Position numbers and translations under genes: made by a program | Assembly: GCF_000760935.2 (NCBI RefSeq) | Contig: NZ_CP049744.1 | Span: 4,247,501-4,311,500, forward strand | Length of the DNA stretch: 64,000 nucleotides | From: Rhodococcoides fascians A25f | GTDB lineage: Bacteria; Actinomycetota; Actinomycetes; Mycobacteriales; Mycobacteriaceae | Direction of reading: 5' to 3' | In this document: positions 27,477-63,851 of the stretch, one piece after another | Numbering within the stretch: position 1 is the stretch's first letter | How the letters are laid out: each line of letters begins with the position of its first letter | The notes under the pieces: generated by a model | The model's input: the letters and a program-made list of their open reading frames with translations, nothing else | Database searches by the model: none | What the model was told of the DNA's origin: nothing

Positions 27477-27480
27477 TGCT

Positions 27481-48141: not shown

Positions 48142-49338
48142 TCACCGGCTCGGGCTGAGATCGGTGAGGGCGTCGACGATTTCCTGTCGACGCATCCGGG
48201 ACTGTTTGGGCATGTTCCACCCGAGGATTCCGGTCACCACACCGTTGCTCCGGTATCGAGCAACGAAACGACGGCCGGCGACGTCGCCTTCCACTATGTC
48301 CACGTCGGCGTCCTTTGGGAGCAATCCATGTACCTGCAATTTGGCGTCGAACTGGTCGGTCCAGAAATAGGGAATCGGGGCGTAGGGAGCGGAGTCGCCG
48401 GTGATCACACCGGCGACGGCCGCGGCCTGTTCGGTGACGTTGGTGCGATTCTCCAACCGCATCAGTGCGCCCGTGTGCTCGTGGTACCAACGTGCGACGT
48501 CGCCGACCGCATAGATTCCCTCGGCTGCCCGGCAGTGCGAATCGCAGACCACGCCATTGTCGAGTTCGAGTCCGCTGCCTTCGAGCCATTGAGTACACGG
48601 CACCGCGCCGATCGCGACGACCACGACGTCTGCGGGCAGAGTGTCACCGCTCGCGAGTTCGACGCCGGACACTCGACCGTCGGTGCCCGTCAACCCGGCC
48701 ACGCCGGTTCCGAGACGTAGGTGCACCCCGTTCTCGAGGTGAAGATCGCGAAGTAGACCCGACACGAGTGGACCTACCTGCCCGGCCATGGGTGCCGCCA
48801 ACGGACCGGCAATGGTGACGTCCACCCCGAGACTCCTTGCTGTGGCTGCGATCTCGGAGCCCAGGACACCCTCTCCGACAACGACGAGCCTGGCACCAAC
48901 GGTCAGATCTGCGCGCAGCCGGACGGAATCCTCGAGAGTGCGCAGTACATGCACGCCGGCGAGATCCGGCTGATCGGGAAGCGTTCGCGGACGAACGCCC
49001 GTAGCAATCACCAGGGCGTCGGCGCTGAAGGTGCGTCCGCTCGCCGTGTGCACAGCGTGCGCCGAGACATCCAGGCTCGTCGCCGTTTCTCCGAGTTCGA
49101 ATCGAACGTCGAGGCCGGCCAGAAGCTCTTCGGTTCTCAACGCGGCACGTTCGGGCTGCCACGCGCCCGCCAGCACCTGTTTCGAGAGCGGTGGACGGTC
49201 GTACGGCGCATGCATTTCGTCACCGAGAACGGTGATCTCCCCCGTGAACTTCTTACGGCGCAACGCCTCGACAGTGGTCAATCCTGCTGCAGACCCACCG
49301 ATCACTACAACGCTGTTCGCACTGCTGACCATGCTCAT
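48142..49338 (-). CDS. FAD-dependent ferredoxin reductase (rhodocoxin-reductase type)
   Basis: This is a 398-residue pyridine-nucleotide-disulfide-type flavoprotein. The FAD motif VVIGGSAAGL is at residues 11-20, the NAD motif is VVVGEGVLGSEIA, and an ATG-type motif is VIATGVRPR. A Reductase_C-like end follows. The start ATG 49338 is coupled to the preceding SDR stop. It would reduce the adjacent 3Fe-4S ferredoxin using NAD(P)H. The electron acceptor enzyme, a P450 or oxygenase, must be encoded elsewhere or be unconventional. Confidence 0.92.
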   Translation of the reverse strand: MSMVSSANSVVVIGGSAAGLTTVEALRRKKFTGEITVLGDEMHAPYDRPPLSKQVLAGAWQPERAALRTEELLAGLDVRFELGETATSLDVSAHAVHTASGRTFSADALVIATGVRPRTLPDQPDLAGVHVLRTLEDSVRLRADLTVGARLVVVGEGVLGSEIAATARSLGVDVTIAGPLAAPMAGQVGPLVSGLLRDLHLENGVHLRLGTGVAGLTGTDGRVSGVELASGDTLPADVVVVAIGAVPCTQWLEGSGLELDNGVVCDSHCRAAEGIYAVGDVARWYHEHTGALMRLENRTNVTEQAAAVAGVITGDSAPYAPIPYFWTDQFDAKLQVHGLLPKDADVDIVEGDVAGRRFVARYRSNGVVTGILGWNMPKQSRMRRQEIVDALTDLSPSR

Positions 49339-50075
49339 CCGAGGTAACGACCACCGTTGACGCTCAGCGTCTGGCCGGTGACATAGGCAGCACCGTCGGA
49401 GGCCAGATACGCGACGGCATGCGCGATATCCTCGGGCTGGCCCGCCCGCTTCATCGGCATGGTTGCTGCCGCAGCCGACGGGTCGGGGAGGCCCTCGCGC
49501 AGCAGTGGCGTGTCGATGAAGCCAGGGGGCACGGTGTTGACGGTGATGCCCTTGTCGGCGAACTCCATGGCAAGCGCTTTGGTCATACCCATGACGCCTC
49601 CTTTGGATGACGCGTAATGCGCAAGTGCAGGCGCGCCGGTCTGAGCAGACGAGGATGAGATGTTGATGATGCGCCCCCACCCTGCGTCCAACATGTCCGG
49701 GACGAAGGCCTTGGTCACCAGGAACGGGCCCTTGAGATTGATGCGGATCATGCGATCCCATTCCTCCTCGGACAGGCTCGGGAACAGCGCATACGTGGTT
49801 ACACCCGCATTGTTGACCAGGATTCCCACCGGGCCCAACTGTTGCTTGATCGTCGCGGCCGCAGCTGCGACGGACCCTGCTTCTGCTGCGTCTCCGCCGA
49901 CTGCAATTGCTCGACCGCCGACCTCTTCTATTGCCGCAACGGTCTTTTCCGCGCTTTCCTCGTTCAGGTCCCACACCGCTACCGCAGCGCCTCTTGATGC
50001 CAGTTCCAGCGCGATCGCCGCGCCGATACCGCGGCCACCACCGGTGACTACTGCTACTTTGCCTTGCAACGACAT
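49335..50075 (-). CDS. SDR-family oxidoreductase (FabG-like)
   Basis: This is a 246-residue SDR from ATG 50075 behind AAGGAGC. It has the cofactor motif VTGGGRGIG, NNAGVT, catalytic Ser in SSSSAQTG and YASSK. It is preceded by the carboxymuconolactone-decarboxylase-like gene and overlaps the reductase gene. Its role is probably alcohol/ketone interconversion or 3-hydroxyacyl oxidation in the cyclase-led pathway. Confidence 0.9.
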   Translation of the reverse strand: MSLQGKVAVVTGGGRGIGAAIALELASRGAAVAVWDLNEESAEKTVAAIEEVGGRAIAVGGDAAEAGSVAAAAATIKQQLGPVGILVNNAGVTTYALFPSLSEEEWDRMIRINLKGPFLVTKAFVPDMLDAGWGRIINISSSSAQTGAPALAHYASSKGGVMGMTKALAMEFADKGITVNTVPPGFIDTPLLREGLPDPSAAAATMPMKRAGQPEDIAHAVAYLASDGAAYVTGQTLSVNGGRYLG

Positions 50076-50108: not shown

Positions 50109-50507
50109 CTAGGAGTCGAGCGCCTCGCGCACCACTTCACGTGCGGCCACCGCAGCAGGGAATCCCGTGTAACCCGCTGCGTGATAAAGGATCTCGGCGA
50201 TCTCGGGTTTTGTCACACCGTTGGTGATGGCCACCCGAGAATGGGTCTTCAGCTCCGCGTCACACCGAAGCGCCACCAGTAGGGCGATCGTGATCAGACT
50301 GCGGTCGCGCTTGGACAGTCCCTCTCGCGTCCACATCTGGCCCCAGACGCTGACCAATCCGAGTTCGACCAGATCCTCACCGAGCCGTCCATCTCGCAGA
50401 TCGACATCGCCTTCCGGGATCACGCCGGGCAGAGCTTCGCGTAGGGCCTGTAGGCCCGCTGCGCGCAGATCGGTGTCCGTGGACACTGTTGCGTTTTCGA
50501 TTGTCAC
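50109..50507 (-). CDS. Carboxymuconolactone decarboxylase-family protein
   Basis: This is a 132-residue CMD/AhpD-fold protein. I start it at GTG 50507 because AGGAG lies six bases upstream; upstream in-frame frames have no such site. The core RSLITIALLVALRCDAELKTH and GYTGFPAAVAA (given separately) match the family. It lacks the CxxC of AhpD peroxidases, having a single Cys and a His, so a decarboxylase or other lyase/hydrolase role is more likely than peroxidase. Confidence 0.85.
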   Translation of the reverse strand: MTIENATVSTDTDLRAAGLQALREALPGVIPEGDVDLRDGRLGEDLVELGLVSVWGQMWTREGLSKRDRSLITIALLVALRCDAELKTHSRVAITNGVTKPEIAEILYHAAGYTGFPAAVAAREVVREALDS

Positions 50508-50569
50508 AGTCGACTCCTGAATGTTTGGGGCGTGGCCGTGTCTCTGCTGCCCGCGGCCCGAATGGGGGC

Positions 50570-50974
50570 TTACATCTCGAAAGTGGTCAGCCTGCGCTGG
50601 AAAAGCCACTGACCTGACCGGATCCGAAGCGTGTCCTCGTAGTGACCCGCGAGCTGCACGGCCCAACCTGATTCTCCGCGAACGAACAGGACGAAATCGC
50701 TGGACACCGTTGCCTCGTCGGCGCTCACCACAGTGACTACAGAATTTCCGGTCATGTGACGCTGCGGTGCCATCGGCACCAGGTTGGCATACGCACCGGT
50801 CAGTTGTTCGTGACCGGAAAATGTTCCGTAGCCGGTTATTTCGGATACACCGTCATCGGTGAACAGAGCCACCACATCCGAGGTTCGCCCCTCGTCCAAA
50901 GCGTGCGCGTACGCCGCGATGGCCGCAAGAACTCCGTCGACTGCAGATACGTCCGTTGCTGTTCTCGTGCTCAT
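50570..50974 (-). CDS. SnoaL-like / NTF2-fold protein, copy 1
   Basis: This is a 134-residue protein from ATG 50974 behind GGAGG. The NTF2-like cone fold is indicated by the N-terminal helices, GTFSGHEQLTG, the PQRHMTGN segment and a C-terminal LRIRSGQWLFQRR strand. Members are small cyclases, isomerases, hydratases or binding proteins. It is a paralogue of the next gene upstream (51043-51441). Confidence 0.85.
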   Translation of the reverse strand: MSTRTATDVSAVDGVLAAIAAYAHALDEGRTSDVVALFTDDGVSEITGYGTFSGHEQLTGAYANLVPMAPQRHMTGNSVVTVVSADEATVSSDFVLFVRGESGWAVQLAGHYEDTLRIRSGQWLFQRRLTTFEM

Positions 50975-51042: not shown

Positions 51043-51441
51043 TTATGCCTGGTATGTAGTGGCGCGCTTGGCGAATCGCCAGCGACCGTCCTGCAACCGC
51101 AACGTGTCCTCGTACTTGCCCAATACCTTTACGGCCCAGCCTGATTCGCCTCGCTGAAAGAATGCGACGTCACTGCTGGCGGTGGCCTCGTCATCGCTGT
51201 CGACCGTGATGAGCGTGTTCGCCACGAGATGCCGCTGTGGTGTTGTCGGTACCCAACCCTCGAACGCCGCGCGGAGCGCATCCCGACCGGTGATCTGACC
51301 GAAGCCCGGTACGTCGAGCACTCCGTCCACCGTGTAGAGATCGACGATCTCCTCGGTTCGGCCGGCATCTTGAGCCTGCGTGTGGGCACCGATCAATGCG
51401 CGCACCTGCGCTGCGGCAGAGGAATTCTGGAAGTCACTCAC
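51043..51441 (-). CDS. SnoaL-like / NTF2-fold protein, copy 2
   Basis: This is a 132-residue protein starting at GTG 51441, six bases after GGAG; the frame opens at a TTG just upstream, which is less likely. It matches copy 1 in layout and shares the PQRHxxxN segment, FxRGESGWAV and the LRLxDGRWxF ending. The pair could form a heterodimer or act on successive intermediates. Confidence 0.85.
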   Translation of the reverse strand: MSDFQNSSAAAQVRALIGAHTQAQDAGRTEEIVDLYTVDGVLDVPGFGQITGRDALRAAFEGWVPTTPQRHLVANTLITVDSDDEATASSDVAFFQRGESGWAVKVLGKYEDTLRLQDGRWRFAKRATTYQA

Positions 51442-51579
51442 GACGATCTCCAATCGAATCTGTTGGTCCGCCGGATGAGTTCAGCGGAAGGAAACGAGCT
51501 CAGCGGCTCGCCCTCGGGTCGGGCGGCACAAGGGCAGCTGCCATCGAACCGATGGCCCGAGGCGGCAGCTGCTCGGCCG

Positions 51580-52500
51580 TCATTGGAACTGATGGGCCAG
51601 GAATTTACCCGACCAGTCCATCAGATCGTCCGGTACGAAGTAGCCGGTTTCGTCGTTGATCTCGGCCCAATTCTCGGCCACGTCCTCGATCGTTGGGGCA
51701 CCGGAGGGCTTGTAGTAGCCCTGGGTCGACCCGATGAACAGGCGCGCGAAGCGTCCGGCACCCGCGACGTAGATCTCGCCGTTGACGGGGCAGCTCTCAT
51801 GCGCAAGGAATGCGACCATGGGAGCAACCGCGGCCGACGGCATATGCGGTTGGCCCGGCACGGCTTCGGCGTTGTCCGGTGGCTCGTCCATCCCTGCCAT
51901 TCGAGTCATTGCCGCCGGCGCAATGAGATTGGTCTTGATGTCGTGCGGATCGCCCGCCAGCTTCATACTTCGAGTCATGCCGACCAGTCCGGCCTTCGCC
52001 GTGGCGTAGGGCAGGTTGTTGTCGAGACCGAGCATGCCCGTCGAGGTCGTGTGGATGATCCTGCCGTAACCCTGCTCGATCATGTGCGGAAATGCGGCCT
52101 TGCTGGTGTTGAAGGCACCGAGCAGGTGGACGGCGATATGACGCTCGACGTTGTCCAGAGTGACCTCGGGCATTCCCGCATAGCGCACGATGCCTGCGTT
52201 GTTGACCACGATGTCGATGCGGCCGAACTGCTCGATTGCCGTATCGATGATTGCCGTGGCACCTGCCGCCGTCGACACGTCATCGGTGTTCGGAACAGCT
52301 TTGCCACCGGCAGCAACGATTTCGTCCACCACTGTCTGCGCCGGGCCCGAGTCGCTGCCCTCACCCTCGATCGAGCCACCGAAGTCGTTGACCACGACGC
52401 TGGCTCCTCGAGCACCGAGGAGCTTGGCGTACGCCCGTCCGATTCCGCGACCGGCTCCGGTGATCACTGCGACGCGTCCGTCGAACTGAAGTTCGGACAT
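51580..52500 (-). CDS. MFE-2/Fox2-type (3R)-hydroxyacyl-CoA dehydrogenase-like SDR
   Basis: This is a 306-residue SDR, longer than FabG types. The segment VVVNDFGGSIEGEGSDSGPA and the VVDEIVAAGGKAVPN that follows are characteristic of the dehydrogenase domain of multifunctional enzyme 2. The catalytic residues are in TTSTGMLG and YATAK. ATG 52500 lies two bases after the cyclase-family stop, so translation is coupled. It likely oxidises a 3R-hydroxyacyl-CoA or a similar secondary alcohol. Confidence 0.88.
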   Translation of the reverse strand: MSELQFDGRVAVITGAGRGIGRAYAKLLGARGASVVVNDFGGSIEGEGSDSGPAQTVVDEIVAAGGKAVPNTDDVSTAAGATAIIDTAIEQFGRIDIVVNNAGIVRYAGMPEVTLDNVERHIAVHLLGAFNTSKAAFPHMIEQGYGRIIHTTSTGMLGLDNNLPYATAKAGLVGMTRSMKLAGDPHDIKTNLIAPAAMTRMAGMDEPPDNAEAVPGQPHMPSAAVAPMVAFLAHESCPVNGEIYVAGAGRFARLFIGSTQGYYKPSGAPTIEDVAENWAEINDETGYFVPDDLMDWSGKFLAHQFQ

Positions 52501-52502
52501 GA

Positions 52503-53555
52503 TCAGACCGTCGCGACCGGTGTCAGGGGGCTACCCATGGTGCCGGGCAGATTCAGCGGAGGAGCAGTGAGCAAGAAGCGACTGCGCTCGTGTGCACGTA
52601 GCCAATCGGCAAGTGCCTGCGTGTTCCACAGCTCACCGAGTGGGATTCCCAGCTTGAACAGACACAGGTTGTGAATCGGCAGCAGCGAGTGCGGTGTCTC
52701 GTCGCCCGGGACGAAACCTTCGACCGCGTAGTTGTCGGAGATCAATGCCGCGAGGCCGGAATCGGTGATCCACTGCAGGATTTCGGGATCCTCGGCGTCC
52801 AGGTAGGCGTACATGGCCTGAATCTTCGTGGGGTCCGGGTTCTTCTCCCACCGCAGAATCTGATCGGCGAAACCGGTATGAAGGATCACCATGTCACCCG
52901 GCTCGACGACGACGCCGTCCTTGTCCATGATTTCTTTGAGCTTGGCGTAACCGATGGGCTGCCATTCGTGCTTGGTGTCGCCCAGGTGATGGGCGATATC
53001 GATGAGAACGCCGCGCCCCTGCACCCCGTGTTCTGCCATGTGCTCGAGTCCGAGGTTCTTCGCGAAGGAAAGGCTGCCGCTGCCATCGCCTTTCGCATCT
53101 TCTTTCGGACCGACGATATGCTCGTCGGCTCGGAAACCGTTGTAGTACACGGCTTCGTCGACGCCGTCCTCGTCCGCGTCGAACAATGCGCCCTGATGAG
53201 CGAGTGAATCCCACTGCGTCGAGTACTGAAGCCACAAGGTGACGACGTCATCGCCCCACACATCGATGAAGTTCGGCGCGATCTTGTCACGAGCAACGAT
53301 GTTGTAGAAGGTGTCCTGATTGTGCATCAGGTCCTCGGTGGGCCGAAGAATCGGCGGGTAACGACGCTGGTTCAACGCCGAACCACCGGGATAGTCGAGC
53401 GGCAGACTCAGGCTGAACGTCTCGCCGGTCTGGACCTCTCGGACGCCCTCGAGCACTTTCTCCGCTGTGACGAGGTTGATACGCCCCAGTTCGTCATCAT
53501 CGCCGAAATCGCCCCAGTTGGAACCCGGGGGGCGCTGCTTCCACCGCTTGGTCAC
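52503..53555 (-). CDS. Cyclase-family metal hydrolase (kynurenine-formamidase-like)
   Basis: The protein has 350 residues from GTG 53555, six bases after AAGGAG. The open frame continues to 53612 but passes through the operator at 53616 and lacks a ribosome site. The PF04199 metal motif appears as the variant TQWDSLAH (113-120), with HLGDTKHE and HTGFADQ further on. The family hydrolyses amides, esters, lactones or ring bonds. As first gene of an eight-gene operon beside a Baeyer-Villiger monooxygenase gene, a lactone or ester hydrolase role is plausible but unproven. Confidence 0.88.
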   Translation of the reverse strand: MTKRWKQRPPGSNWGDFGDDDELGRINLVTAEKVLEGVREVQTGETFSLSLPLDYPGGSALNQRRYPPILRPTEDLMHNQDTFYNIVARDKIAPNFIDVWGDDVVTLWLQYSTQWDSLAHQGALFDADEDGVDEAVYYNGFRADEHIVGPKEDAKGDGSGSLSFAKNLGLEHMAEHGVQGRGVLIDIAHHLGDTKHEWQPIGYAKLKEIMDKDGVVVEPGDMVILHTGFADQILRWEKNPDPTKIQAMYAYLDAEDPEILQWITDSGLAALISDNYAVEGFVPGDETPHSLLPIHNLCLFKLGIPLGELWNTQALADWLRAHERSRFLLTAPPLNLPGTMGSPLTPVATV

Positions 53556-53615
53556 GGCAACTCCTTCACTCGATGTCAGTCTTCGTCGACTGGTAGGTGT
53601 GATATTACTCATTAT

Positions 53616-53633
53616 TATACTGGTCGGTCAATA
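53616..53633 (+). promoter_or_regulatory. TetR-regulon operator, site A
   Basis: The site reads TATACTGGTCGGTCAATA and lies 61 bases before the cyclase-family start. It matches the shared pattern T-N2-ACCG-N2-CRGT-N2-A with one core mismatch (T for the second C). It is positioned to control the eight-gene operon 53555-47928. Confidence 0.65.
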
Positions 53634-53710
53634 CAATTCTGGGAACAAAACGGACAGCCGAGCCGGGAGCGAACGAGCGGCCGATGCAGCTTTGAAAACG
53701 TGAAAGCTGT

Positions 53711-55351
53711 TCAGACACTTGCCCGATCGTCGGTGCGGCCACGCACCAAACGGAACTCCTCGAATCCACCCTGGATCGTCTTGGCAATGATTTGCTGCAG
53801 CGTCGGCCTACCCGCCGGGTTGAGCAGTTGCTTGACAGGCTTACCTGGAATGTTCGCTCCATAGAAGTAGCTTTTGTCGGTGAACGACGAGTAGACACTC
53901 GCGGAATCCATCATCGCCGTCCACTCTTCCTCCGCGGCGGCGCTGATCTCCATCACTGCAATGTCGTTGTCACGAGCAAACTTCAACGCATCGGTGACGA
54001 ACTCGACCTGATCACCCGAGTAACGGGGGTTGTTTCCGGTCGACCCGTGCGGACCACCGGGAAAGAAGAAGTTGGGGAACCCGGCTGCCACAGTGCCCAG
54101 GTAGGTTCTCGGCCCATCCCCCCAATAGCTCTTCAACTCGAGTCCGTCCCGTCCGCTGACGCCGAGGCGATTCAGTGCACCGGTGCCGAAGTCGTAGCCG
54201 GTCGACCACACGATGATGTCGAATTCCTTGACACCACTTTCGGTTTCGATACCAACAGGGGTGACTCGTTGCATCGGCGTTTCCTTCAGTGACACCAACT
54301 CGACGTTTGGCTGGTTGTACACCTGGAAGTAGTCCGTCACGAAGGGCGGACGCTTACCGCCGTAGCCGTGATCCTTGGGAATGAGCTTCTCGGCAGTCTC
54401 AGGATCGTCGACCAGACTGCGTATCTTGTCGGCAACGAAATCCGACCACTCTTTGTTCGCGACAGGGTTGAGCGTCATGTCGATGTAATGGGTGGTCAAC
54501 TTCTCGAATCCGGGGCTGCTCCACATCTTCTCGTAGAAGGGCAGACGGTCGACGTCTGCGTCCTCCTCGAACTTTCGAAAGTCCATCTTGTGCAGAAAAC
54601 CACTGACCGAGGTGTCCAAGGTCGCCTTGATGGACTCGTAGTTCGCCTTGAGTTCGGCCTGCTCCTCGGCCGAGATCGGCGCGTTGTTCAGAGGCGTGCA
54701 CCAGTTGGCGGTTCGCTGGTACACGGTCAAGGATGCGGCCTCACGCGCCACCACCGGAATGAGCTGGACTCCACTGGAGCCAGTGCCGATGACCGCAACG
54801 CGCTTGCCGGTGAAATCGACCGGGGCCGAGGGCCACAGGCCAGTGTGGTAGCTCTCGCCCTGGAAGGATTCACGTCCCTCCACGTTCGGATAGAACGGGA
54901 CCGACAGGACACCTGTGGCCGCGACCAGATATCGACTTGTCACCACGAAATCATCCTCGGTCGTGGTCGTCCAGCCACCGGTCGACTCGTCGAAGGAGGA
55001 GGACACCACCTTCGAATCGAAGCGGATGTCCTTGCGCAGATCGAACTTGTCGACGACGTAGTTGAAGTACCGTTCGATCTCCGGCTGGCCGGCGAAGCGC
55101 TCGGACCATTCCCACTCTTCCCACAGCTCCTTCGAGAACAGATAGCCGTAGGTGTAGCTCTCGGAGTCGAACCGAGCCTCGGGATAGCGGTTCCAGAACC
55201 AGGTACCGCCCACGCCGTGGCCGGCCTCGAGGACCTGAACCGAAAAGCCTTCCTCGCGGGCGCGGTAGGCCTGGTAGATACCGGTCACCCCGGCACCGAT
55301 CACGACGACGTCGACGTCGAACGCGCTGCGCTCGTGTACTTCTTGGCTCAC
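53711..55351 (-). CDS. Flavin-containing Baeyer-Villiger monooxygenase
   Basis: This is a 546-residue type I BVMO starting at GTG 55351 behind GGAGG. The first FAD motif is GAGVTG (19-24), GGTWFWNRYPEARFD follows, the BVMO fingerprint FQGESYHTGLWP spans 163-174, and the NADPH motif GTGSSG is at 189-194. It would insert oxygen next to a ketone, giving an ester or lactone. It is transcribed on its own behind operator site B, and the cyclase-family hydrolase downstream could open the product. Confidence 0.95.
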   Translation of the reverse strand: MSQEVHERSAFDVDVVVIGAGVTGIYQAYRAREEGFSVQVLEAGHGVGGTWFWNRYPEARFDSESYTYGYLFSKELWEEWEWSERFAGQPEIERYFNYVVDKFDLRKDIRFDSKVVSSSFDESTGGWTTTTEDDFVVTSRYLVAATGVLSVPFYPNVEGRESFQGESYHTGLWPSAPVDFTGKRVAVIGTGSSGVQLIPVVAREAASLTVYQRTANWCTPLNNAPISAEEQAELKANYESIKATLDTSVSGFLHKMDFRKFEEDADVDRLPFYEKMWSSPGFEKLTTHYIDMTLNPVANKEWSDFVADKIRSLVDDPETAEKLIPKDHGYGGKRPPFVTDYFQVYNQPNVELVSLKETPMQRVTPVGIETESGVKEFDIIVWSTGYDFGTGALNRLGVSGRDGLELKSYWGDGPRTYLGTVAAGFPNFFFPGGPHGSTGNNPRYSGDQVEFVTDALKFARDNDIAVMEISAAAEEEWTAMMDSASVYSSFTDKSYFYGANIPGKPVKQLLNPAGRPTLQQIIAKTIQGGFEEFRLVRGRTDDRASV

Positions 55352-55400
55352 TTTTCCTCCACTGTCGAATCAGATCGCGGCCTGTGACGATCACTATATT

Positions 55401-55418
55401 TCGACCGGTCAGTCGAAT
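55401..55418 (+). promoter_or_regulatory. TetR-regulon operator, site B
   Basis: The site reads TCGACCGGTCAGTCGAAT and contains a perfect TTCGAC-N6-GTCGAA inverted repeat (55400-55417). It lies 50 bases upstream of the BVMO start and matches the core ACCG-N2-CAGT exactly. Confidence 0.7.
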
Positions 55419-55511
55419 ATACGAAAACGGACGATATTGGTTCCCCGAAATTCGGGGAAACGTCATACATGCTCTTGCACAACATGATTGGAATCAGCTG
55501 TCACGAATGCT

Positions 55512-57521
55512 TCAACTGTGGCCGGACGGATCGGCGTCGATCACCTCTCGAATCGCGGCCTCGATATCCGCCTCGTCGGGCAGCCACGCTTTCTCCAGGA
55601 CTGGCGAGTACGGTGCCGGAGACTGCGCAGCGGTCACCCGCACCACCGGTGCATCGAGATGCCAGAAGCCCTCACGTACCGCTCGCGCCGCGATCTCGGC
55701 ACCTACTCCGAACTCACCGACCGCCTGATGAACGACGACAAGCCGGTTCGTCTTCTTGAGCGACGTCAGGATCGTGTCGAAATCCAGCGGACTGATCGTT
55801 CGCAGATCGATGACCTCGGTGTCGATACCACTGTCGGCCAATCGATCCGCGACGGCCAGACATCCCTGCATCATTGCGCTGTACGACACGACGGTCACGT
55901 CGGAACCCGGCCGTCGAACGATTGCCTTGCCGAGTGGGATCAGGTGGTCGTCGGCGGGCTTCGGCCCCTTCATCCCGTACAGCAACCGATTCTCGATGAA
56001 CACGACCGGGTTGGGGTCTTGAATGGCCGCGCGAAGAAGACCGTACGTGTCGGCCGGGGTCGACGGCATCACCACCGTCAGGCCCGGGATATGCGCCAGC
56101 AGGGCCTCCAGGCTCTGCGAATGCTGGCTTCCGGAGGACTTACCTGCCGCGAACTGAGTGCGGACCACCATCGGCAAGGATGCGGCACCGCCGGTCATGA
56201 ATCGCAGCTTGGCCGCTTGGTTCATGAGCTGGTCGAGACAGACACCGATGAAGTCGAAATACATCAGCTCGACAACCGGCTTGAACCCCGCCATCGCGGC
56301 ACCCACAGCCGTACCCATGATGGCGCTCTCCGAGATCGGGGTATCACGAACCCGCCCCGGATACTTCCCCGCCAGTCCCCTGGTGAGACCGAAGACGTTC
56401 CCGCCCTCCCCCACGTCTATACCGGCGAGGAAGACCGACGGGTCGTCGTCGAGTTCACGCGCGAGGGCAGCAGTGATGGCGTGCATCGTCTTCCACACGC
56501 CCTCCGTTGCCTCAGCCGGCTCGGGAATGAACGCCCGCTCGGAGTAGACGTAGTCACCGGCAGTCTCGACTGCCGGGTACGATGCCTCGCCTGCCAGTGT
56601 GACGGCGCGGTCGATGGCAATCTGAACTTCGCTGTTCACCGCATCGACGCGCTCACCGAGCCCGGCCGAGCGCATACGATCAGCGAGCAGCTCGAGCGGA
56701 TCACGCAGCTTCCATTGCGCCAGTTCGTCTTCCAGCCGGTAGCTCTGCGGATCGCCCTCGTAATGACCGTGCCATCTGTAGGTGGCAGCCTCTACGATCA
56801 TCGGCCCGGCACCTGCGCGAATCCGCTCGACCAACGTTGTCTGCAATGCAGCTACTGCAGTCACATCGTTTCCATCGACGCTGTGGAACTCGATTCCGTA
56901 TCCCGCAGCCCGGGCCTCGAGCGTCGCGCGATGCTGATCGGTGGCCGAGGAGAATTCCGCGTAACCGTTGTTCTCGCAGAAGAAGATCACGGGAAGGTCC
57001 CACACGGCAGCCAGGTTCACCGACTCGTGAAAGACACCCTGCGCAACGGCTCCGTCGCCGAAGAACGCTACGACGACCGCGCCTTCCGCCTTCAATTGTG
57101 CTGCGGTACCGGCACCGACGGCAATCGGCATACCTGCACCCACGATTCCGTTGGCACCGAAGATGCCCTTCCTGGGGTCTGCGATATGCATCGACCCGCC
57201 CCGACCCTTACAGGTGCCGGTCTCTTTCCCCATCAACTCGGCAAACATGCCATCGACGTCGAGCCCCTTGGCGATGCAATGTCCGTGGCCGCGGTGCGTG
57301 GACGTCACGACGTCACGGTCGTCCAGCGGCCAGCATGCGCCGACAGCCGAGGCCTCCTGCCCGATCGACAGGTGCAGGAAGCCCGGGATCTGGTTGGTTT
57401 TGTACAGACGTGATGCTCGATCCTCGAACTGCCGAATCAGTCGCATACGACGATAGAGCTCGGTGAGTGTGTCCGGGTGCTCGATCGCGTCCGTCCGGAA
57501 TGCCGTCTCGATTGTGGTCAT
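55512..57521 (-). CDS. Fused alpha-beta E1 of a 2-oxoacid/acetoin dehydrogenase type
   Basis: This is a 669-residue thiamine-diphosphate enzyme. Residues about 1-330 are the E1-alpha part, with the TPP motif GDG (155-157) ending in CENN and the loop GHYEGDPQSYR. Residues about 345-669 are the E1-beta part. The start is ATG 57521 after GAGGG; the frame to 57653 crosses the control region. No E2 or E3 gene is nearby. It would decarboxylate a 2-oxoacid or cleave an acetoin-like product, passing electrons or acyl groups to a shared E2, or act alone. Confidence 0.92.
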   Translation of the reverse strand: MTTIETAFRTDAIEHPDTLTELYRRMRLIRQFEDRASRLYKTNQIPGFLHLSIGQEASAVGACWPLDDRDVVTSTHRGHGHCIAKGLDVDGMFAELMGKETGTCKGRGGSMHIADPRKGIFGANGIVGAGMPIAVGAGTAAQLKAEGAVVVAFFGDGAVAQGVFHESVNLAAVWDLPVIFFCENNGYAEFSSATDQHRATLEARAAGYGIEFHSVDGNDVTAVAALQTTLVERIRAGAGPMIVEAATYRWHGHYEGDPQSYRLEDELAQWKLRDPLELLADRMRSAGLGERVDAVNSEVQIAIDRAVTLAGEASYPAVETAGDYVYSERAFIPEPAEATEGVWKTMHAITAALARELDDDPSVFLAGIDVGEGGNVFGLTRGLAGKYPGRVRDTPISESAIMGTAVGAAMAGFKPVVELMYFDFIGVCLDQLMNQAAKLRFMTGGAASLPMVVRTQFAAGKSSGSQHSQSLEALLAHIPGLTVVMPSTPADTYGLLRAAIQDPNPVVFIENRLLYGMKGPKPADDHLIPLGKAIVRRPGSDVTVVSYSAMMQGCLAVADRLADSGIDTEVIDLRTISPLDFDTILTSLKKTNRLVVVHQAVGEFGVGAEIAARAVREGFWHLDAPVVRVTAAQSPAPYSPVLEKAWLPDEADIEAAIREVIDADPSGHS

Positions 57522-57595
57522 CAGCCCTCTGTCAGTCGATGTGCCGCAAGAGCAATGGTTGCGCTCTTGACTAAAGTTCATCCGACCGTGAATAT

Positions 57596-57613
57596 TATAC
57601 CGTATGGTCGAAA
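57596..57613 (+). promoter_or_regulatory. TetR-regulon operator, site C
   Basis: The site reads TATACCGTATGGTCGAAA and sits in the 135-base divergent gap between the E1 gene (start 57521) and the acyl-CoA dehydrogenase gene (start 57657). One site could regulate both directions. Confidence 0.65.
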
Positions 57614-57656
57614 AAACAAGGGACGTTGAACAAGCAGAAAAAAGGACGGTCACGAA

Positions 57657-58817
57657 ATGGACTTAGAGCTGCCGGCCGAGACACTCGAGCTTCAGGCACT
57701 GTGCCGATCGTTCGCGGAGAAAGAGATAGACCCGCACGCGGCATTCTGGTCCGAGGAAGAACGGTTCCCCTCGGAGGTCTTCGTCAAGATGGGTGAACTC
57801 AACCTCAACGGGCTTCTGATTCCGGAGGAGTACGGCGGCATGGACGTGGGCTACGTGTCGTACGTCGCCGCCATGGAAGCCATCGGTGGTGCGGATCAGT
57901 CCCTCGGCGCTGCATGGAACGCGCACTCCACGATCGGGTCGCTTCCGCTGCTAGCTTTCGGAACGGAGAAGCAGAAGCAGGACTGGCTGGTCCCGCTCGC
58001 CACCGGATCCAAGATCGGCGCGTTCGGGTTGACCGAGCCCACGGCGGGTTCCGATGCTGCGGGCATTCGCACAACCGCCCGTGCAGACGGGGACGGTTGG
58101 GTCATCAACGGCGGCAAGATGTTCATCACCAACGCAGGCACGGATATCAGTATCGGCGTAACGATTCTGGCTGTGACCGGTAAGAACGATGACGGAACCA
58201 AGCGTTACGGTACGTTCTTCATCCCCACGGGTACGGAGGGCTATACCGTAGGTAAATCGCTCCACAAACTCGGCTGGCACGCGATGGATACGCGCGAACT
58301 CGTCTTCGACAACTGCTGGATTCCGTCGGAGAACCTCATCGGCGAAGAGGGAAACGGCCTACGGCAATTCCTCGACGTCCTGGACGGTGGCCGAATCAGC
58401 GTCGCAGCACTTGCACTATCACTCGCCCAGACCGCGCTCGACCTCGCAATCGATCACGCCAAGAATCGTGAACAGTTCGGCAGCCCTCTCACCAAATTCC
58501 AAGCAGTGCAGCACAAGATCGCAGACATGGCGACCGAGATCGAGGCGGCCAGAAGCCTCGTCTACCGAGCAGCGTGGTTGGCGGACAACAAGAAGCCGTT
58601 CGGTCAAGCGGCCGCCATGGCCAAGGTCTACGCATCGGAGGTCGCAAACCGCGCGGCCAGTTCCAGCCTCCAGATTCACGGTGGTTACGGCTACATTCGC
58701 GAATCGAAGATCTCGCGTTTCTATTCCGATGCGAAGATACTCGAAATCGGCGAGGGTACCAACGAGATTCAGCGAAACGTGATCGCGCGCAGTGTGATCA
58801 ACGCGAAGCGGCGATGA
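57657..58817 (+). CDS. Acyl-CoA dehydrogenase, short/medium-chain type
   Basis: This is a 386-residue enzyme with the signature FGLTEPTAGSDAAGIRTTA and INGGKMFITNAG. The C-terminal EIGEGTNEIQRN includes the catalytic glutamate of the medium-chain/short-chain family. It is a canonical, complete family member, in contrast to the other dehydrogenases in this window. ATG 57657 has AAGGACGG upstream. It is divergent from the E1 gene with operator C between them. Confidence 0.94.
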   Translation: MDLELPAETLELQALCRSFAEKEIDPHAAFWSEEERFPSEVFVKMGELNLNGLLIPEEYGGMDVGYVSYVAAMEAIGGADQSLGAAWNAHSTIGSLPLLAFGTEKQKQDWLVPLATGSKIGAFGLTEPTAGSDAAGIRTTARADGDGWVINGGKMFITNAGTDISIGVTILAVTGKNDDGTKRYGTFFIPTGTEGYTVGKSLHKLGWHAMDTRELVFDNCWIPSENLIGEEGNGLRQFLDVLDGGRISVAALALSLAQTALDLAIDHAKNREQFGSPLTKFQAVQHKIADMATEIEAARSLVYRAAWLADNKKPFGQAAAMAKVYASEVANRAASSSLQIHGGYGYIRESKISRFYSDAKILEIGEGTNEIQRNVIARSVINAKRR

Positions 58818-58823
58818 ATACCC

Positions 58824-58858
58824 CTCCCGGTTCGGGCCGAACAGGTTCGAACCGGGAG
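58824..58858. terminator. Hairpin terminator 1 after acyl-CoA dehydrogenase
   Basis: An 11-bp perfect stem (58824-58834 with 58848-58858) with a 13-base loop starts seven bases after the stop codon. Confidence 0.7.
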
Positions 58859-58870
58859 TGCACCACCGAC

Positions 58871-58914
58871 GAAGCATCCCCGGTCTCGCATTGTGCAAGA
58901 CCGGGGATGGCTTC
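58871..58914. terminator. Hairpin terminator 2 between convergent genes
   Basis: An 11-bp stem (58876-58886 with 58898-58908) is extended by GAAGC/GCTTC beyond a one-base bulge. It lies before the convergent SDR stop and probably serves that gene as well. Confidence 0.75.
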
Positions 58915-58934
58915 GTTCGAGTCCTCCCACTGCT

Positions 58935-59726
58935 TCAGCGGGCCACCCAACCTCCGTCGACGTTGACAGATGTTCCCGTGACATACGAGCTGGCGTCACT
59001 CGCCAGAAACACAGCAGCGCCACCCAGTTCGGATGGGATGCCCAGCCGTCCCATCGGAGTCGCCGAAAGGATGGTCTCGCCCCACTTACTGTCCAGCAGC
59101 CCGGAGGACAGATCGGTGCGAAAGTAGCCGGGGGCAAGAGAATTGACCCGAACGCCGTGTCGAGCCCACTCGACGGCAAGAGTCTTCGTCAGTGCATCCA
59201 GCCCACCTTTGCTGGCCGCGTACGCAGCGATGCGTTCGAAACCCGTCACCGCATGAACCGAGGTGACATTGACGATGCTTCCTGCACCTTGGGTCAACAT
59301 CTGGGCACCGGCCTCGCGAGCGCAGAAGAATGCGCCGTCGAGATTGACTGCGATGACGCGTCTCCAGTCCTCGTCGGTCACTCGCTCGCTTCGGGTGAAA
59401 CTGGGACTTATTCCTGCGCAGTTGATCAGCGCATCGACGCGGCCGTGTTCGGAGACGATGTCTCTCACCGCCTCGGCCGCGAAGCCCGGTTCGTCGACTG
59501 CACCTGCAATCACCGACGCGCGAGCCGTGGGCCCCGCTTCTGTCAATTCTTCTGCCACTCGGAACAAGTCGGACTCCGTACGAGAAGTCAGAACGACCGT
59601 CGCTCCCGCGTCGTGCAACGCATGCACAATGGCCGATCCCAAACCTTTCCCTGCACCGGTCACCCAGACGACTTTGCCGATCAGGTCGAACGGAGATGTT
59701 CTCGTGTCGGACGATGAATAGACCAT
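58935..59726 (-). CDS. SDR-family oxidoreductase
   Basis: This is a 263-residue SDR with cofactor motif VTGAGKGLG, NCAGIS, TSVHAVTG and YAASK. It begins five bases after the acyl-CoA-ligase stop and is co-transcribed with it. The listed start ATG 59726 has only a distant ribosome site. It is a glucose-dehydrogenase/FabG-like member. The substrate is unknown, but TetR-regulon membership suggests an alcohol or hydroxyacyl intermediate. Confidence 0.88.
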   Translation of the reverse strand: MVYSSSDTRTSPFDLIGKVVWVTGAGKGLGSAIVHALHDAGATVVLTSRTESDLFRVAEELTEAGPTARASVIAGAVDEPGFAAEAVRDIVSEHGRVDALINCAGISPSFTRSERVTDEDWRRVIAVNLDGAFFCAREAGAQMLTQGAGSIVNVTSVHAVTGFERIAAYAASKGGLDALTKTLAVEWARHGVRVNSLAPGYFRTDLSSGLLDSKWGETILSATPMGRLGIPSELGGAAVFLASDASSYVTGTSVNVDGGWVAR

Positions 59727-59731
59727 GCTTG

Positions 59732-61252
59732 TTACGTTGCCTCTCGCAGAGTACGTTTCAGCACTTTCCCGGAGGGCGTGCGTGGAAGGGACTCGATGTA
59801 GACGATGCTCGACGGCACCTTGTACTTGGCGAGGCGTCCGCGACAGAACTCCTTGAGATCTTCGATCCCGGCCGTACTTCCCGGCCGCAGAACCACGAAC
59901 GCCTTCGGAACTTCACCCCACCGGTCATCTGGAACACCGATCACAGCAGCTTCGATGACGTCCGGGAACTCGTACAGAACACGCTCGACCTCAGGGCTGG
60001 CAATGTTTTCGCCCCCCGAGACGATCATGTCTTTTTTGCGATCTTCGATGTAGAGGAAGCCGTCGGTATCGAGGCGGCCGATGTCGCCCGTGTGGAACCA
60101 CCCGTTCTTGAGTGCCTTTTCCGTAGCCTGTTCGTCTCGCCAGTAACCGGACGTCACCTTGGGTCCACGCACAGCGATCTCACCCAGTTGACCTGCCTGC
60201 ACGCGCTTTCCGTCATCATCGAAAATTGCGATCTGCGTATGGGCGACCGCCCTCCCCACGGACCCCACCTTGGATCTCATGTGCTCGGCATCGTTGATGG
60301 TGTCTCCGGACACGGTCTCCGTGAGTCCGTATGCATCTGCGAACCACGAGGCCGGAAAAACGTGCGCGATACGATCGAGAAGTGGCACCGGCATCTTCTC
60401 TCCGCCACCGGTGATGAATCGAATCGAGCGCGTATCCCTGTCTTCGATGTTCGGCAGCTGAAGTACCGCATTCATCATCGATGGAGCAAGCCAGATGTTC
60501 GTCGGACGCTCCTGCTCGATTGCGTCGATGACGGCATTCGGATCGAATTTGCGCAGTAGGCGCAGACTGCCGCCGACGTGGAGCGTCGCCAACCCGGGGA
60601 GGTCCATACCGCCGACGTGATAGAGCGGGCCGCACACCAGAGTGGTGTCCGATGAGGTCAGCGAGAACTCCAGAATATGCGCAAGGTTCTTGAAAATCAG
60701 GTTTTCGTGGGAAATCTTGACGCCCTTGGGACGCGATGTCGTGCCCGAGGTGTACATCAGCCTCTGCAGCTCGGACGGGTCGACATCCGCGAGATCGGTA
60801 GTCTCGCCGAGATGCCGATCAACCAAGTCGGAGTATCGATTCCACGTCGGACCGCTCGGATCCGAGAGTGTGACCTTGGTTCGAAGCAGCGGCAAGTGCG
60901 GACCGATCACATCGATCTTGTCCGCGAACTCTGCCTCGGTCACGATTGCCACGGCTTCGGCGTGTTGGAGAATGAACGTCCACTCGGCGTCGGACAGCCG
61001 ATAGTTCAGTGGCACGATGGCGGCACCGATCCTGTTGGCCGCGAACATGGTTTCGATGAACTCGATGTGGTTGTACAGCAGAACGCCGATAATGTCGCCG
61101 CGCCCGATGCCGAGTTCCACCAATGCCACGGCAAGCGCATCGACGCGAGTGCGCAGCTCCTCGTGGGTGACCTCACGGTTCGTCTCCGATACTGCAATGC
61201 GGTCGGGGAAACGTGCCGCATTTCTGTCGACCACGGTCGCGAAATTGATCAT
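59732..61252 (-). CDS. Acyl-CoA synthetase (AMP-forming)
   Basis: This is a 506-residue adenylate-forming ligase. The P-loop is YTSGTTSRPKG, the adenine motif YGLTETVSG, the hinge GGENIASPEVE, and the catalytic lysine is in PRTPSGKVLKR. ATG 61252 follows AAAGGG. It leads a two-gene operon behind operator site D. It should activate an acid intermediate of the TetR-controlled pathway for the dehydrogenase and hydratase steps encoded nearby. Confidence 0.94.
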   Translation of the reverse strand: MINFATVVDRNAARFPDRIAVSETNREVTHEELRTRVDALAVALVELGIGRGDIIGVLLYNHIEFIETMFAANRIGAAIVPLNYRLSDAEWTFILQHAEAVAIVTEAEFADKIDVIGPHLPLLRTKVTLSDPSGPTWNRYSDLVDRHLGETTDLADVDPSELQRLMYTSGTTSRPKGVKISHENLIFKNLAHILEFSLTSSDTTLVCGPLYHVGGMDLPGLATLHVGGSLRLLRKFDPNAVIDAIEQERPTNIWLAPSMMNAVLQLPNIEDRDTRSIRFITGGGEKMPVPLLDRIAHVFPASWFADAYGLTETVSGDTINDAEHMRSKVGSVGRAVAHTQIAIFDDDGKRVQAGQLGEIAVRGPKVTSGYWRDEQATEKALKNGWFHTGDIGRLDTDGFLYIEDRKKDMIVSGGENIASPEVERVLYEFPDVIEAAVIGVPDDRWGEVPKAFVVLRPGSTAGIEDLKEFCRGRLAKYKVPSSIVYIESLPRTPSGKVLKRTLREAT

Positions 61253-61296
61253 CGTGCCCTTTCACTCTTCCCGCAACTACTGGACTCGCTGTTTGA

Positions 61297-61314
61297 TGTA
61301 CCGATCAGTCTAGA
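61297..61314 (+). promoter_or_regulatory. TetR-regulon operator, site D
   Basis: The site reads TGTACCGATCAGTCTAGA, the best match to the shared pattern. It lies 45 bases upstream of the acyl-CoA synthetase start, so it would overlap or follow the promoter. Confidence 0.75.
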
Positions 61315-61376
61315 CATCTCCACGTCCGTGCACACGCACTATCGGCACGAAAGGGCACCGCAGTCCGCGCCGACAC

Positions 61377-62129
61377 TCACGGCAGCGAATACCCTCCGTC
61401 GACGACGAGAGAATGCCCGGTCACCCAACGGGAATCGTCACTGGCGAGATAAGCGATTGCGCCGGCGATATCGTCCGGCGCACCGAAGCCAAGGGGGTGC
61501 TTGGCCTCGATGGACGCCAACGCCTCTGGCGGCAATCCCTCGTGTAGGGCAGAAGGAAATGTTCCCGGACACACTGCATTCACCCGAATACCTTCCTTCG
61601 CGTACTCCAGGGCAGCAACCCGCGTCAAGTGGATGACCGCGGCCTTGGACGCGCAATACGGTGCCGCGTAGGCCCATGCAGTGATGCCGCTGACGGATGC
61701 CACATTCACGATCGACACTGCCCCGCGCTTGCGCATGGTTCGCGCAACCGCGCGCACTCCGTGGAAGGTCCCCGTGCTGTTCACCGCGAAAGACCGCTCC
61801 CAGTCTGCGGTCGACAAGTTATGGATCCGCGCGTTCGGCGAGACAATTCCGGCAGAGTTGACCAGGGCATCGAGTGCGCCGAACCGGTCGACCGTACGCG
61901 AGACCAATGCGTCGAACCCATCGCCGTCAGTTACATCGAGGTTCTCTGCGAGGACATTTACTCCCGTGGCACCGATCTCCTCCGAAATGGGACCGAGAGC
62001 TGCCGCATTCATATCGGCGAGAACCAGATTGGACACCCCCTCGAAGGCGAGCCTCCTGGCTACGGTGGCACCGAGCGCACCTGCAGCTCCGGTCACGATC
62101 ACCGTCTTCGAGTCGAACCTAGTACTCAT
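61377..62129 (-). CDS. SDR-family oxidoreductase
   Basis: This is a 250-residue SDR starting at ATG 62129 after GGAGG. The cofactor motif is VTGAAGALGATVA, followed by NSAGIVS, NVASVSG and YCASK, ending with GGYSLP. It is transcribed alone behind operator site E. With three other SDRs in this regulon, it may handle one stereoisomer or one of several alcohol steps. Confidence 0.9.
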   Translation of the reverse strand: MSTRFDSKTVIVTGAAGALGATVARRLAFEGVSNLVLADMNAAALGPISEEIGATGVNVLAENLDVTDGDGFDALVSRTVDRFGALDALVNSAGIVSPNARIHNLSTADWERSFAVNSTGTFHGVRAVARTMRKRGAVSIVNVASVSGITAWAYAAPYCASKAAVIHLTRVAALEYAKEGIRVNAVCPGTFPSALHEGLPPEALASIEAKHPLGFGAPDDIAGAIAYLASDDSRWVTGHSLVVDGGYSLP

Positions 62130-62161
62130 TGCAGCCTCCCGCGACCAGACGTTCGATGTAA

Positions 62162-62179
62162 TTTAGAACACTCGGTATA
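62162..62179 (-). promoter_or_regulatory. TetR-regulon operator, site E
   Basis: On the minus strand the site reads TATACCGAGTGTTCTAAA, 33 bases upstream of the SDR start. The left half-site is intact; the right half is weaker (GTTC for GGTC), so it may be a lower-affinity member. Confidence 0.55.
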
Positions 62180-62301
62180 CAAAACCAAAATAGTCGACGT
62201 GTCAAGAGGCCCAGGTCGAAGTTCCCCCGAACCCAACTCACGGGCACAGCACAATGCCCGTGCGTCGACCACCCGCACGGGCATTGCGATCATCTCTTTT
62301 T

Positions 62302-62958
62302 CTACTGAGCCATCGCTTGAATCCGAGCTACCTCGGCTTCCATCGTGTCGAAATCGAAGTCTCCACCGGCGAATCCGGTGAAGAGAGTCTTGCAATATGT
62401 TTTGGACAGGAAGGCTGCATCCCACCTCTGCTCGGGCTTCAGCCACTGGTACGTGTGATTGTGCATGTTCAAATATTGGAGCATGGCAAGCACCGGATCC
62501 GCCTCACGGAAGGTTCCTTCTTCCATTGCAGCAACCAACATTTCGCGCACGATGTTCTCGAACTCGTGCCGTCGCTTGAGCATTCGGGACAGATTGTCAC
62601 CCGTCAGATGCTTGTAGTCGTGCTCGTAAACCCAGATGTGATCGAGACGCCGGAAGATCATGTCGAGCAGAGCATGCGAGAGCAGCCGAAGCTTCACTGC
62701 GGGCGCAGTGTCGATCTCGGCGATGCGATTGGCGTTGTACACCAGCGGGTCGAGGACCCGCTCCTGAATCTCGACCAGGAGATTCTCCTTGGAGCGAATG
62801 TAGTAATACAGCGCCCCCTTGGCCAGTCCGACAGTCTCACCGATCTCGACAATTCCTGTTGCCGCATATCCGTTCTTGGCGAACAAGCCCGCCGCAAGAT
62901 CGATGATCTCCTGGCGCTTGACCTCGTACGAGGGGCCGTGCCCGGGTGGTCGCGCCAT
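62302..62958 (-). CDS. TetR-family regulator, proposed master of the 47.9-64 kb regulon
   Basis: This is a 218-residue regulator starting at ATG 62958 behind GAGGAA. The helix-turn-helix lies at about residues 15-60 (VGLAKGALYYYIRSKENLL), and a TetR_C-type ligand domain follows with many aromatic and basic residues. It is 40 bases downstream of the enoyl-CoA hydratase gene and is probably co-transcribed with it behind site F, giving autoregulation. Its nearness to six matching operators makes it the prime candidate regulator; a CoA thioester is a likely inducer. Confidence 0.92.
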   Translation of the reverse strand: MARPPGHGPSYEVKRQEIIDLAAGLFAKNGYAATGIVEIGETVGLAKGALYYYIRSKENLLVEIQERVLDPLVYNANRIAEIDTAPAVKLRLLSHALLDMIFRRLDHIWVYEHDYKHLTGDNLSRMLKRRHEFENIVREMLVAAMEEGTFREADPVLAMLQYLNMHNHTYQWLKPEQRWDAAFLSKTYCKTLFTGFAGGDFDFDTMEAEVARIQAMAQ

Positions 62959-62998
62959 AGAATTCCTCAGCTGTTCGTGTTCCTCGATCCGTACCAGC

Positions 62999-63784
62999 TT
63001 ACTCGAGGGTAGTTCCGAACTGCGCTTTGCCGAGCCCGTGATCGAAGAAGGAATCGATTCCGATCTTTCGGTCGCCGGTGGCGAACAGTCCGGCAAGCAC
63101 GTTCCTGTCCATCGCCAGACCGGTGGCCAGCGGGCTGTCCGCGCCGAGGTCGATCGATTCCTTGATCGCCTGAAGCGCGAAACGTGGCCCGGCCGCGAAC
63201 CGTGCTGCAAGGTCCTGTGCCAAAACGAGAACATCCTCGGACGGCACCACGTGTTCGGCGATACCGAGCCTCGAACACTCGGACGAGTCCAACCGGCGGC
63301 CCGACATGAGAATCTCTTTGGCCTTGCTGACGCCGACGAGCCGCCGCAGACGTTGCATCCCCCCCGCACCAGGCACGATTCCCAGCTGAACTTCGGGAAG
63401 AGCCATCACGGCATCGTCTGCCAACACCCGGAAGTCGGCTGCGAGAGCCAACTCCATCCCGCCACCGAGGGCAACACCGTTGACTGCCGCGATAACAGGC
63501 AACGGTAGAGCAGCGATCTCGTTGAACACTCGCTGCAAGGCTCTGTTCCAAACAGAGATCTGCTCGTACTCCATGGCAGCCAACTGTTTGAGGTCCGCAC
63601 CGGCAGCGAACACGCTGGGTCCGCCGGTGACGACAACAGCACGTACGCCCTCGTCCTCGGACAGCGACCGCACAGCAGCTCCCAATTCCACCCGAAGAGC
63701 AGAATCGAATGCATTGACCGGTGGGCGGTCGAGTCGAACGGTGGCAACCGCCCCCACCGTTGTGGTTACTACGTTCTGTGACAT
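62999..63784 (-). CDS. Enoyl-CoA hydratase
   Basis: This is a 261-residue crotonase with both catalytic glutamates present: Glu111 in GGGMELA and Glu131 in LPEVQLG, followed by PGAGGMQRL. It is therefore competent for classical hydration, unlike the two other crotonase-fold proteins in the window. ATG 63784 follows GGAGG. It lies in the same operon as the TetR gene and opposite the isochorismatase-family gene. Confidence 0.94.
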   Translation of the reverse strand: MSQNVVTTTVGAVATVRLDRPPVNAFDSALRVELGAAVRSLSEDEGVRAVVVTGGPSVFAAGADLKQLAAMEYEQISVWNRALQRVFNEIAALPLPVIAAVNGVALGGGMELALAADFRVLADDAVMALPEVQLGIVPGAGGMQRLRRLVGVSKAKEILMSGRRLDSSECSRLGIAEHVVPSEDVLVLAQDLAARFAAGPRFALQAIKESIDLGADSPLATGLAMDRNVLAGLFATGDRKIGIDSFFDHGLGKAQFGTTLE

Positions 63785-63833
63785 CCGAGCCTCCGGGATC
63801 TCGTTGTTGTGGCGCTGCAACAACATACAATTC

Positions 63834-63851
63834 CTTGGACTGATAGGTACA
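63834..63851 (-). promoter_or_regulatory. TetR-regulon operator, site F
   Basis: On the minus strand the site reads TGTACCTATCAGTCCAAG. It lies 50 bases before the enoyl-CoA hydratase start and 62 bases before the divergent isochorismatase-family start, so it can act on both and on the TetR gene itself. Confidence 0.7.

Follow-up and report, generated by a model that had tools for sequence, protein, structure and literature searches.

Several TetR-family repressors of acyl-CoA or catabolic genes, with small regulons around CoA pathways, have been described, and the comparison made here draws on PMC7022988, PMC4424350, PMC3920632, and PMC4150764. KstR2, AibR, MbdR, and BkaR belong to the fold class of the regulator analyzed below; AibR was solved with isovaleryl-CoA, MbdR, whose operator is ATACN10GTAT, is induced by 3-methylbenzoyl-CoA, and BkaR is autoregulated via a palindrome, with the operator GTTA(N)T(N4)A(N)TAAC (PMC3920632). 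Operators of the QacR/CprB type, which are bound by a dimer of dimers, span 22–32 bp (PMC4150764). For PfmR (TTHB023) of Thermus thermophilus HB8, a 16-mer operator consensus has been published (PMC7022988). In this study, we analyzed a 64,000-nucleotide stretch of the 5.9-Mb genome of Rhodococcoides fascians A25f (contig NZ_CP049744.1, positions 4247501–4311500; hereafter, the window), in which the TetR-family protein encoded at 62302–62958 is very probably a PfmR-like autorepressor of six transcription units, together with an amidohydrolase gene and a cytochrome P450 gene (P450a) beyond the window, and is probably released by an acyl-CoA intermediate.

Based on sequence and structural comparisons, the regulator is predicted to work like PfmR, yet it is not PfmR itself. 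The protein carries the Pfam domains TetR_N (3.1e-12) and TetR_C_24 (2.8e-19), and its model is all-helical with a pLDDT of 93.6, as expected of a TetR/AcrR protein. PfmR (3vpr) ranked first in both Foldseek and VIA-align, with KstR2 (22.0) and AibR (21.4) close behind. Moreover, the consensus TNKACCGATCGGTMNA obtained from sites in other genomes agrees with the published PfmR pattern, (a/c)Y(g/t)A(A/C)YGryCR(g/t)T(c/a)R(g/t); the two systems share motif and fold as well as the offset of twin operators. In contrast, the proteins are only 28–29% identical and serve different gene sets, which argues against orthology with a common regulon; PfmR comes from another phylum, its targets in the consulted sections include no P450/Baeyer-Villiger monooxygenase (BVMO) route, and conserved TTT/AAA flanks distinguish the operator described here. 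The BkaR and MbdR operators likewise differ from the ACCG-N2-CGGT operator of this locus. Judging from the predicted fold, the regulator may resemble the KstR2/AibR group in using an acyl-CoA ligand.

The sequence-only reading had proposed six matching 18-bp operators, and all six 18-mers are present at 53616, 55401, 57596, 61297, 62162, and 63834. The first four read on the plus strand, while 62162 and 63834 need the minus strand for alignment; taken in this way, T1, A4-C5, T13-C14, and A16 are invariant in 6/6, as claimed. The proposed consensus T-N2-ACCG-N2-CRGT-N2-A is exact in three sites (53616, 55401, and 61297), and the other three deviate from it. The sites are imperfect palindromes, each agreeing with its own reverse complement at 8–12 of 16 positions. 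They do precede start codons, at 32–74 bases from the site edge rather than the 33–85 given earlier; for site 53616, the distance to the GTG at 53555 is 60 bases. Judged by gene layout, each apparent transcription unit in 47.9–64 kb carries a site, the eight-gene Cyc to Fd unit depending on site 53616 alone, and the 17 genes thus assigned match the earlier count of about 17. The palindrome at 63834–63851 lies before the gene pair that encodes the regulator itself, a putative autoregulatory site. The operators are listed below with their 28-bp matrix scores and genome-wide matches (see the following paragraphs), and the genes after them.

Operator 53616–53633, read on plus: upstream of the eight-gene unit Cyc-SDR2-NTF2b-NTF2a-CMD-SDR1-FdR-Fd; score 26.4; genome-wide E 2.6.
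Operator 55401–55418, read on plus: upstream of the BVMO gene; score 26.3; among the genome-wide matches.
Operator 57596–57613, read on plus: between the divergent E1 (minus) and acyl-CoA dehydrogenase (plus) genes; score 30.1; among the genome-wide matches.
Operator 61297–61314, read on plus: upstream of acyl-CoA ligase and SDR3; score 28.5; among the genome-wide matches.
Operator 62162–62179, read on minus: upstream of SDR4; score 29.8; best genome-wide match, E 0.118.
Operator 63834–63851, read on minus: upstream of the ECH-TetR unit (putative autoregulation) and a divergent isochorismatase-like gene; score 26.8; among the genome-wide matches.

47928–48122, minus: ferredoxin (Fd), 82% to an annotated ferredoxin of a Streptomyces plasmid locus (L034).
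48142–49338, minus: ferredoxin reductase (FdR), domain within the open reading frame (ORF) 48142–49974.
49335–50075, minus: short-chain dehydrogenase SDR1, assigned by 74% to a "glucose 1-dehydrogenase" of L034.
50109–50507, minus: carboxymuconolactone decarboxylase family (CMD), domain seen in the longer ORF 50109–50666, shorter GTG start chosen.
50570–50974, minus: SnoaL/NTF2-like protein a (NTF2a).
51043–51453, minus: SnoaL/NTF2-like protein b (NTF2b).
51580–52500, minus: short-chain dehydrogenase SDR2.
52503–53555, minus: cyclase-family (PF04199) protein, Cyc; GTG at 53555 taken as start, domain scan on 52503–53558, one codon longer and opening with a non-start codon.
53711–55351, minus: BVMO, best PDB relative OTEMO (3uov).
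55512–57521, minus: 2-oxoacid dehydrogenase E1, fused alpha and beta.
57657–58817, plus: acyl-CoA dehydrogenase.
58935–59726, minus: short-chain dehydrogenase SDR3.
59732–61252, minus: acyl-CoA ligase (AMP-binding).
61377–62129, minus: short-chain dehydrogenase SDR4.
62302–62958, minus: TetR-family regulator (P0001), TetR_N and TetR_C_24, PfmR/KstR2/AibR-like predicted fold.
62999–63784, minus: enoyl-CoA hydratase/isomerase family (ECH).
From 63913, plus: isochorismatase-like gene, divergent from ECH-TetR at site 63834.

Within the window, leave-one-out scans left 0–9 non-site positions outscoring each site. For comparison with other genomes, a contig scan for TetR relatives gave 37 loci, of which 27 at 58–83% identity (L036–L062) were used and 10 of lower or partial identity (L063–L072) were excluded from motif work; with the plasmid locus L034, the foreign set comprised 28 loci, some of them near-duplicates. 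The 16-bp matrix of the six window sites found 81 matches in these loci against 4.2 expected, and 68 of the 81 lie at most 300 bases upstream of a gene mapped as homologous to one in the cluster. Among 70 distinct foreign 30-mers, the three positions next to the seed on either side are conserved, as TTT and AAA (0.7–1.1 bits each, symmetrized counts), a T-left/A-right polarity for which AT-rich promoters alone are insufficient. The predicted operator is thus wider than the 18 bp first described. Additionally, an unseeded 4+4 inverted-repeat search of 100 upstream gaps from 24 loci, window excluded, ranked ACCGN2CGGT first (9 observed in foreign upstream gaps; 0.53 expected from coding DNA). 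A 28-bp matrix, for whose refinement 90 foreign sites were used, placed exactly the six sites at ranks 1–6 of the window (26.3–30.1), followed by 31127 (21.1) and 12259 (20.3), and 30 simulated 64-kb sequences gave zero matches at 18 or above.

Across the whole genome, the bare IUPAC pattern (K at position 7) gave 64 strand hits versus 44 for a reversed control and was dropped as a test because it is unspecific. A genome-wide, sequence-only model built from 40 foreign sites and no window sites, with 150 of 863 first-look candidates scored, returned 12 rows at E ≤ 10. These represent eight places, all within the 42-kb span 4278625–4320487: the six sites, 31127, and one place upstream of the amidohydrolase gene. 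The frequent occurrence elsewhere that the sequence-only reading had named as its refutation therefore holds for the bare pattern but not for the full motif. As a control, 36 of 36 congeners lack a TetR ortholog; 12 of them have any match at E ≤ 2 (13 places), and none of these places is directly upstream of a regulon-gene homologue within 1.5-kb flanks. Six congeners (G017, G012, G013, G005, G001, and G002; L084–L086, L088, L092, and L093) have one related operator-like sequence in common, either TGTACCGAACGATCCA or the complement, which is probably the site of another regulator.

The regulator and the sites also occur together. Among 298 genomes of the order, own included, the TetR protein (E ≤ 1e-50) is found in 6 and E1 (E ≤ 1e-200) in 14, E1 being present in all 6 TetR-bearing genomes. 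Where the TetR is at least 64% identical (own included), 4/4 E1 loci have a site scoring at least 26 nearby, while 7/8 E1 loci without the TetR show nothing above 10.4. Of the 25 genomes that contributed L036–L062, 14 were also searched with the genome-wide model; all 14 have matches at E ≤ 2, in 12 of them at the original TetR locus by coordinates, several of these sites having served to train the model. Matches elsewhere point to full clusters that include a TetR of their own in G046 (L120) and G048 (L119), and to another TetR-bearing cluster piece in G044 (L121). At L121, an aligned match beginning at the operator proved an artefact, since the query frame extended past the real start codon on its 5' side; the operator is followed by an in-frame stop codon, with the matching GTG some 68 bases further on. 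At isolated places, 6/8 matches are upstream of homologues of P450a (61–63%; G044, G046, and G048), the amidohydrolase (76–80%; G044 and G048), or BVMO (46%; G050), 53–130 bases from match or start, and none of the 40 model-building sites lay before a P450a or amidohydrolase gene. Three Streptomyces loci (L048, L051, and L055) have a TetR relative and lack a site close by; L051 (G046) and L055 (G048) were rejected as rule-breakers, each genome having a second relative in a full site-bearing cluster. Collectively, the sites ahead of homologous genes across 28 foreign loci, the full-motif specificity, the TetR-site co-occurrence, and the unlinked operators before homologues support the proposal that a single TetR regulon comprises about 17 genes. 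Other actinobacteria conserve the same predicted switch ahead of genes of similar kinds, a real but conventional circuit; the cluster is common to Rhodococcus, Nocardia, Amycolatopsis, Streptomyces, Actinomadura, and Pseudonocardia relatives, and no description of the cluster or regulon was found in open-licence papers. Streptomyces sp. NBC_00080 carries the cluster on a linear plasmid of 561 kb, with meta-cleavage-type genes nearby (L034:27411–34746; dmpG, acetaldehyde dehydrogenase, VOC family).

Several observations weigh against this regulon or limit its support. The foreign sites were first chosen with the window's 16-bp matrix, and the core agreement is therefore partly circular, a circularity that the flank conservation and the unseeded search escape. 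Thirteen of the 81 foreign matches are off mapped homologues, 2 within mapped genes and 11 elsewhere, four of the latter being one conserved Pseudonocardia site. Single genome-wide E-values are modest (best 0.118), so that the grouping of the matches is the evidence, and the P450a operator pair is absent from the rows obtained with the 150 scored candidates. One E1 locus without a TetR ortholog (L112) shows a site-like sequence (19.0), and two genomes whose TetRs are 43–45% identical lack a site at E1, although each has two close to the TetR. Two of the eight isolated places (L124 and L125) are not upstream of regulon homologues, and L048 stays unexplained. The congener control is weak because congeners may lack the regulon homologues, and in one of them (L090) another weak site (14.3) precedes a P450 with 31% identity.

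Among the alternatives, the one that survives best is that some or all sites are used by another TetR of the same genome with ACCG-N2-CGGT specificity, such as the product of 32954–33613, which is TetR-like by sequence reading. Operators can be shared, as PfmR and SbtR bind overlapping sites (PMC7022988); P0001 finds 28 matches in this genome, counting itself, site 31127 precedes the unit containing the 32954 gene, and L034, L036, L040, and L041 carry a second TetR. In the Nocardia clusters, this second TetR (L040:19499–20113 and L041:18466–19083) is 42–44% identical and lies beside the cyclase gene. However, 24 of the 28 foreign loci show a P0001 relative only, in a profile that does not pick up divergent TetRs, including the 32954 gene. 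Congeners with 13–31 TetR-like matches each but no ortholog lack grouped sites, and a site precedes the TetR or ECH-TetR pair in 16/25 loci. We therefore regard use of the sites by another TetR as improbable. Even less probable is that P0001 uses genuine sites for activation or mixed regulation rather than for repression. Some TetR proteins do act as activators. In contrast, the sites here lie 32–74 bases upstream of start codons, and two touch promoter-like hexamers: site 53616 overlaps TTGACC-18-TAATAT (53631–53602, minus), and the wider palindrome at 57596 overlaps a promoter-like −10 on the plus strand, although 3 found against 2.6 in shuffles makes this weak. PfmR, moreover, represses TTHA0750 and TTHA0987 (PMC7022988). 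Finally, chance or compositional likeness of promoters deserves almost no credence, for although the bare consensus is common genome-wide, the foreign matches, flanks, window ranks, unseeded search, and isolated operators before homologues, together with the genome-wide ranking and cross-genus conservation, contradict it at the sequence level.

Autorepression by P0001 thus remains preferred, and its predicted regulon extends past the window to the P450a and amidohydrolase genes. In the adjoining locus L001, which starts at window position 63900, a twin site (649 and 653; 23.5 and 23.2) is upstream of P450a at 679, and a site at 9068 (23.7) is 65 bases upstream of the amidohydrolase ATG at 9149. 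The unit between them, L001:2064–8880 (Rx, FdR2, Fd2, P450b, MFS, CoAT, and VOC), has no site scoring 9 or above and was left out of the regulon; it places a second set of ferredoxin, ferredoxin reductase, and P450 genes, with MFS and CoA-transferase genes, within the regulon span. Two further candidates lie inside the window:

31121–31148: further candidate operator, flanked by an oligopeptide-type ABC importer unit on minus and an APH-family gene on plus; score 21.1; genome-wide E 2.0.
12253–12280: weak candidate operator before an SDR gene; score 20.3; not among the genome-wide matches.

The Thermus PfmR operon also lists a phosphotransferase gene (PMC7022988). The oligopeptide-type ABC transporter genes at window 19745–31152 include two family-5 binding proteins. 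About 13 kb left of the window, L003:6480–6507 holds an operator-like site (22.8), absent from the genome-wide matches, before an IclR-like gene (by sequence reading), near a 3-ketosteroid-dehydrogenase-like flavoprotein and an extradiol-dioxygenase-like protein.

Operators occur singly or as overlapping twins. In 26 loci (the window, L001, L034, and 23 others, four near-duplicates dropped), 86 groups scoring at least 15 were counted, 17 of them pairs, every pair offset by exactly 4 bp. Genes at most 500 bases away were classed as upper route (P450, ferredoxin side, CMD, BVMO, MFS, SDR1/2, Cyc, SnoaL, and amidohydrolase) or CoA side (E1, acyl-CoA dehydrogenase, ligase, SDR3/4, ECH, and TetR), leaving out 3 mixed and 5 unassigned groups, one a pair. 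The amidohydrolase start was taken in this count as 9128 of L001 instead of 9149, a difference that affects a single distance and leaves all classes as they are. Pairs make up 16/32 groups at upper-route genes versus 0/46 at CoA-side genes (Fisher p 3.5e-8); because the classes were drawn after the list was seen and the loci are related, this pattern is a lead. None of the window's six sites is a pair. The PfmR system shows the same 4-bp offset, with TTHA0987 promoter sites starting at 931,253 and 931,257 (PMC7022988, Table 2). By analogy with the QacR/CprB type, the twins could hold two dimers, although the operator sequences differ. A two-tier code, with single operators at CoA-side promoters and twins at many oxygenase, electron-transfer, and transport promoters, is conceivable, but we hold it only tentatively. 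A second TetR might read the twin sites: of the eight foreign twin loci, four show another TetR too (L034, L036, L040, and L041) and four show one (L037, L049, L056, and L059); G044, which contains L049, has a further relative at another place on the contig (L121).

From the sites, their conservation and genome-wide specificity, the TetR co-occurrence, and the predicted fold, we infer binding, repression, a ligand, and a pathway as follows. A TetR dimer would bind a palindrome of about 26 bp, gTTTnnTnKACCGATCGGTMnAnnAAAc, over or beside the promoters of the six units and of the amidohydrolase and P450a genes, and would keep the pathway off. An intermediate, most likely an acyl-CoA from the cluster's own ligase, would enter the C-terminal domain and cause release; the inducing ligand is probably such an acyl-CoA. 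The gene set looks like an upper route of P450, SDR, Baeyer-Villiger, and hydrolase steps feeding a CoA side of ligase, acyl-CoA dehydrogenase, ECH, SDRs, and E1. The P450 resembles the CYP105 group, BVMO resembles OTEMO and phenylacetone monooxygenase, and the cyclase-family protein matches one uncharacterized PDB chain. OTEMO acts on a CoA ester. This content suits a pathway in which an alicyclic or terpenoid ketone would pass through a lactone, ring opening, and CoA activation to beta-oxidation.

With this analysis, the catabolic cluster becomes a defined predicted regulon, and its operators are described by a model that can be put to use. In other genomes, this model picks unlinked pathway genes (P450a, amidohydrolase, and BVMO homologues), narrowing the pathway, and the regulon promoters are ready reporters for an inducer search. 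Moreover, the pattern of single and twin operators is a testable claim on graded control inside one regulon; if it is true, one repressor and one inducer would yield different thresholds, and the costly oxygenases would not be switched on before the lower pathway is ready.

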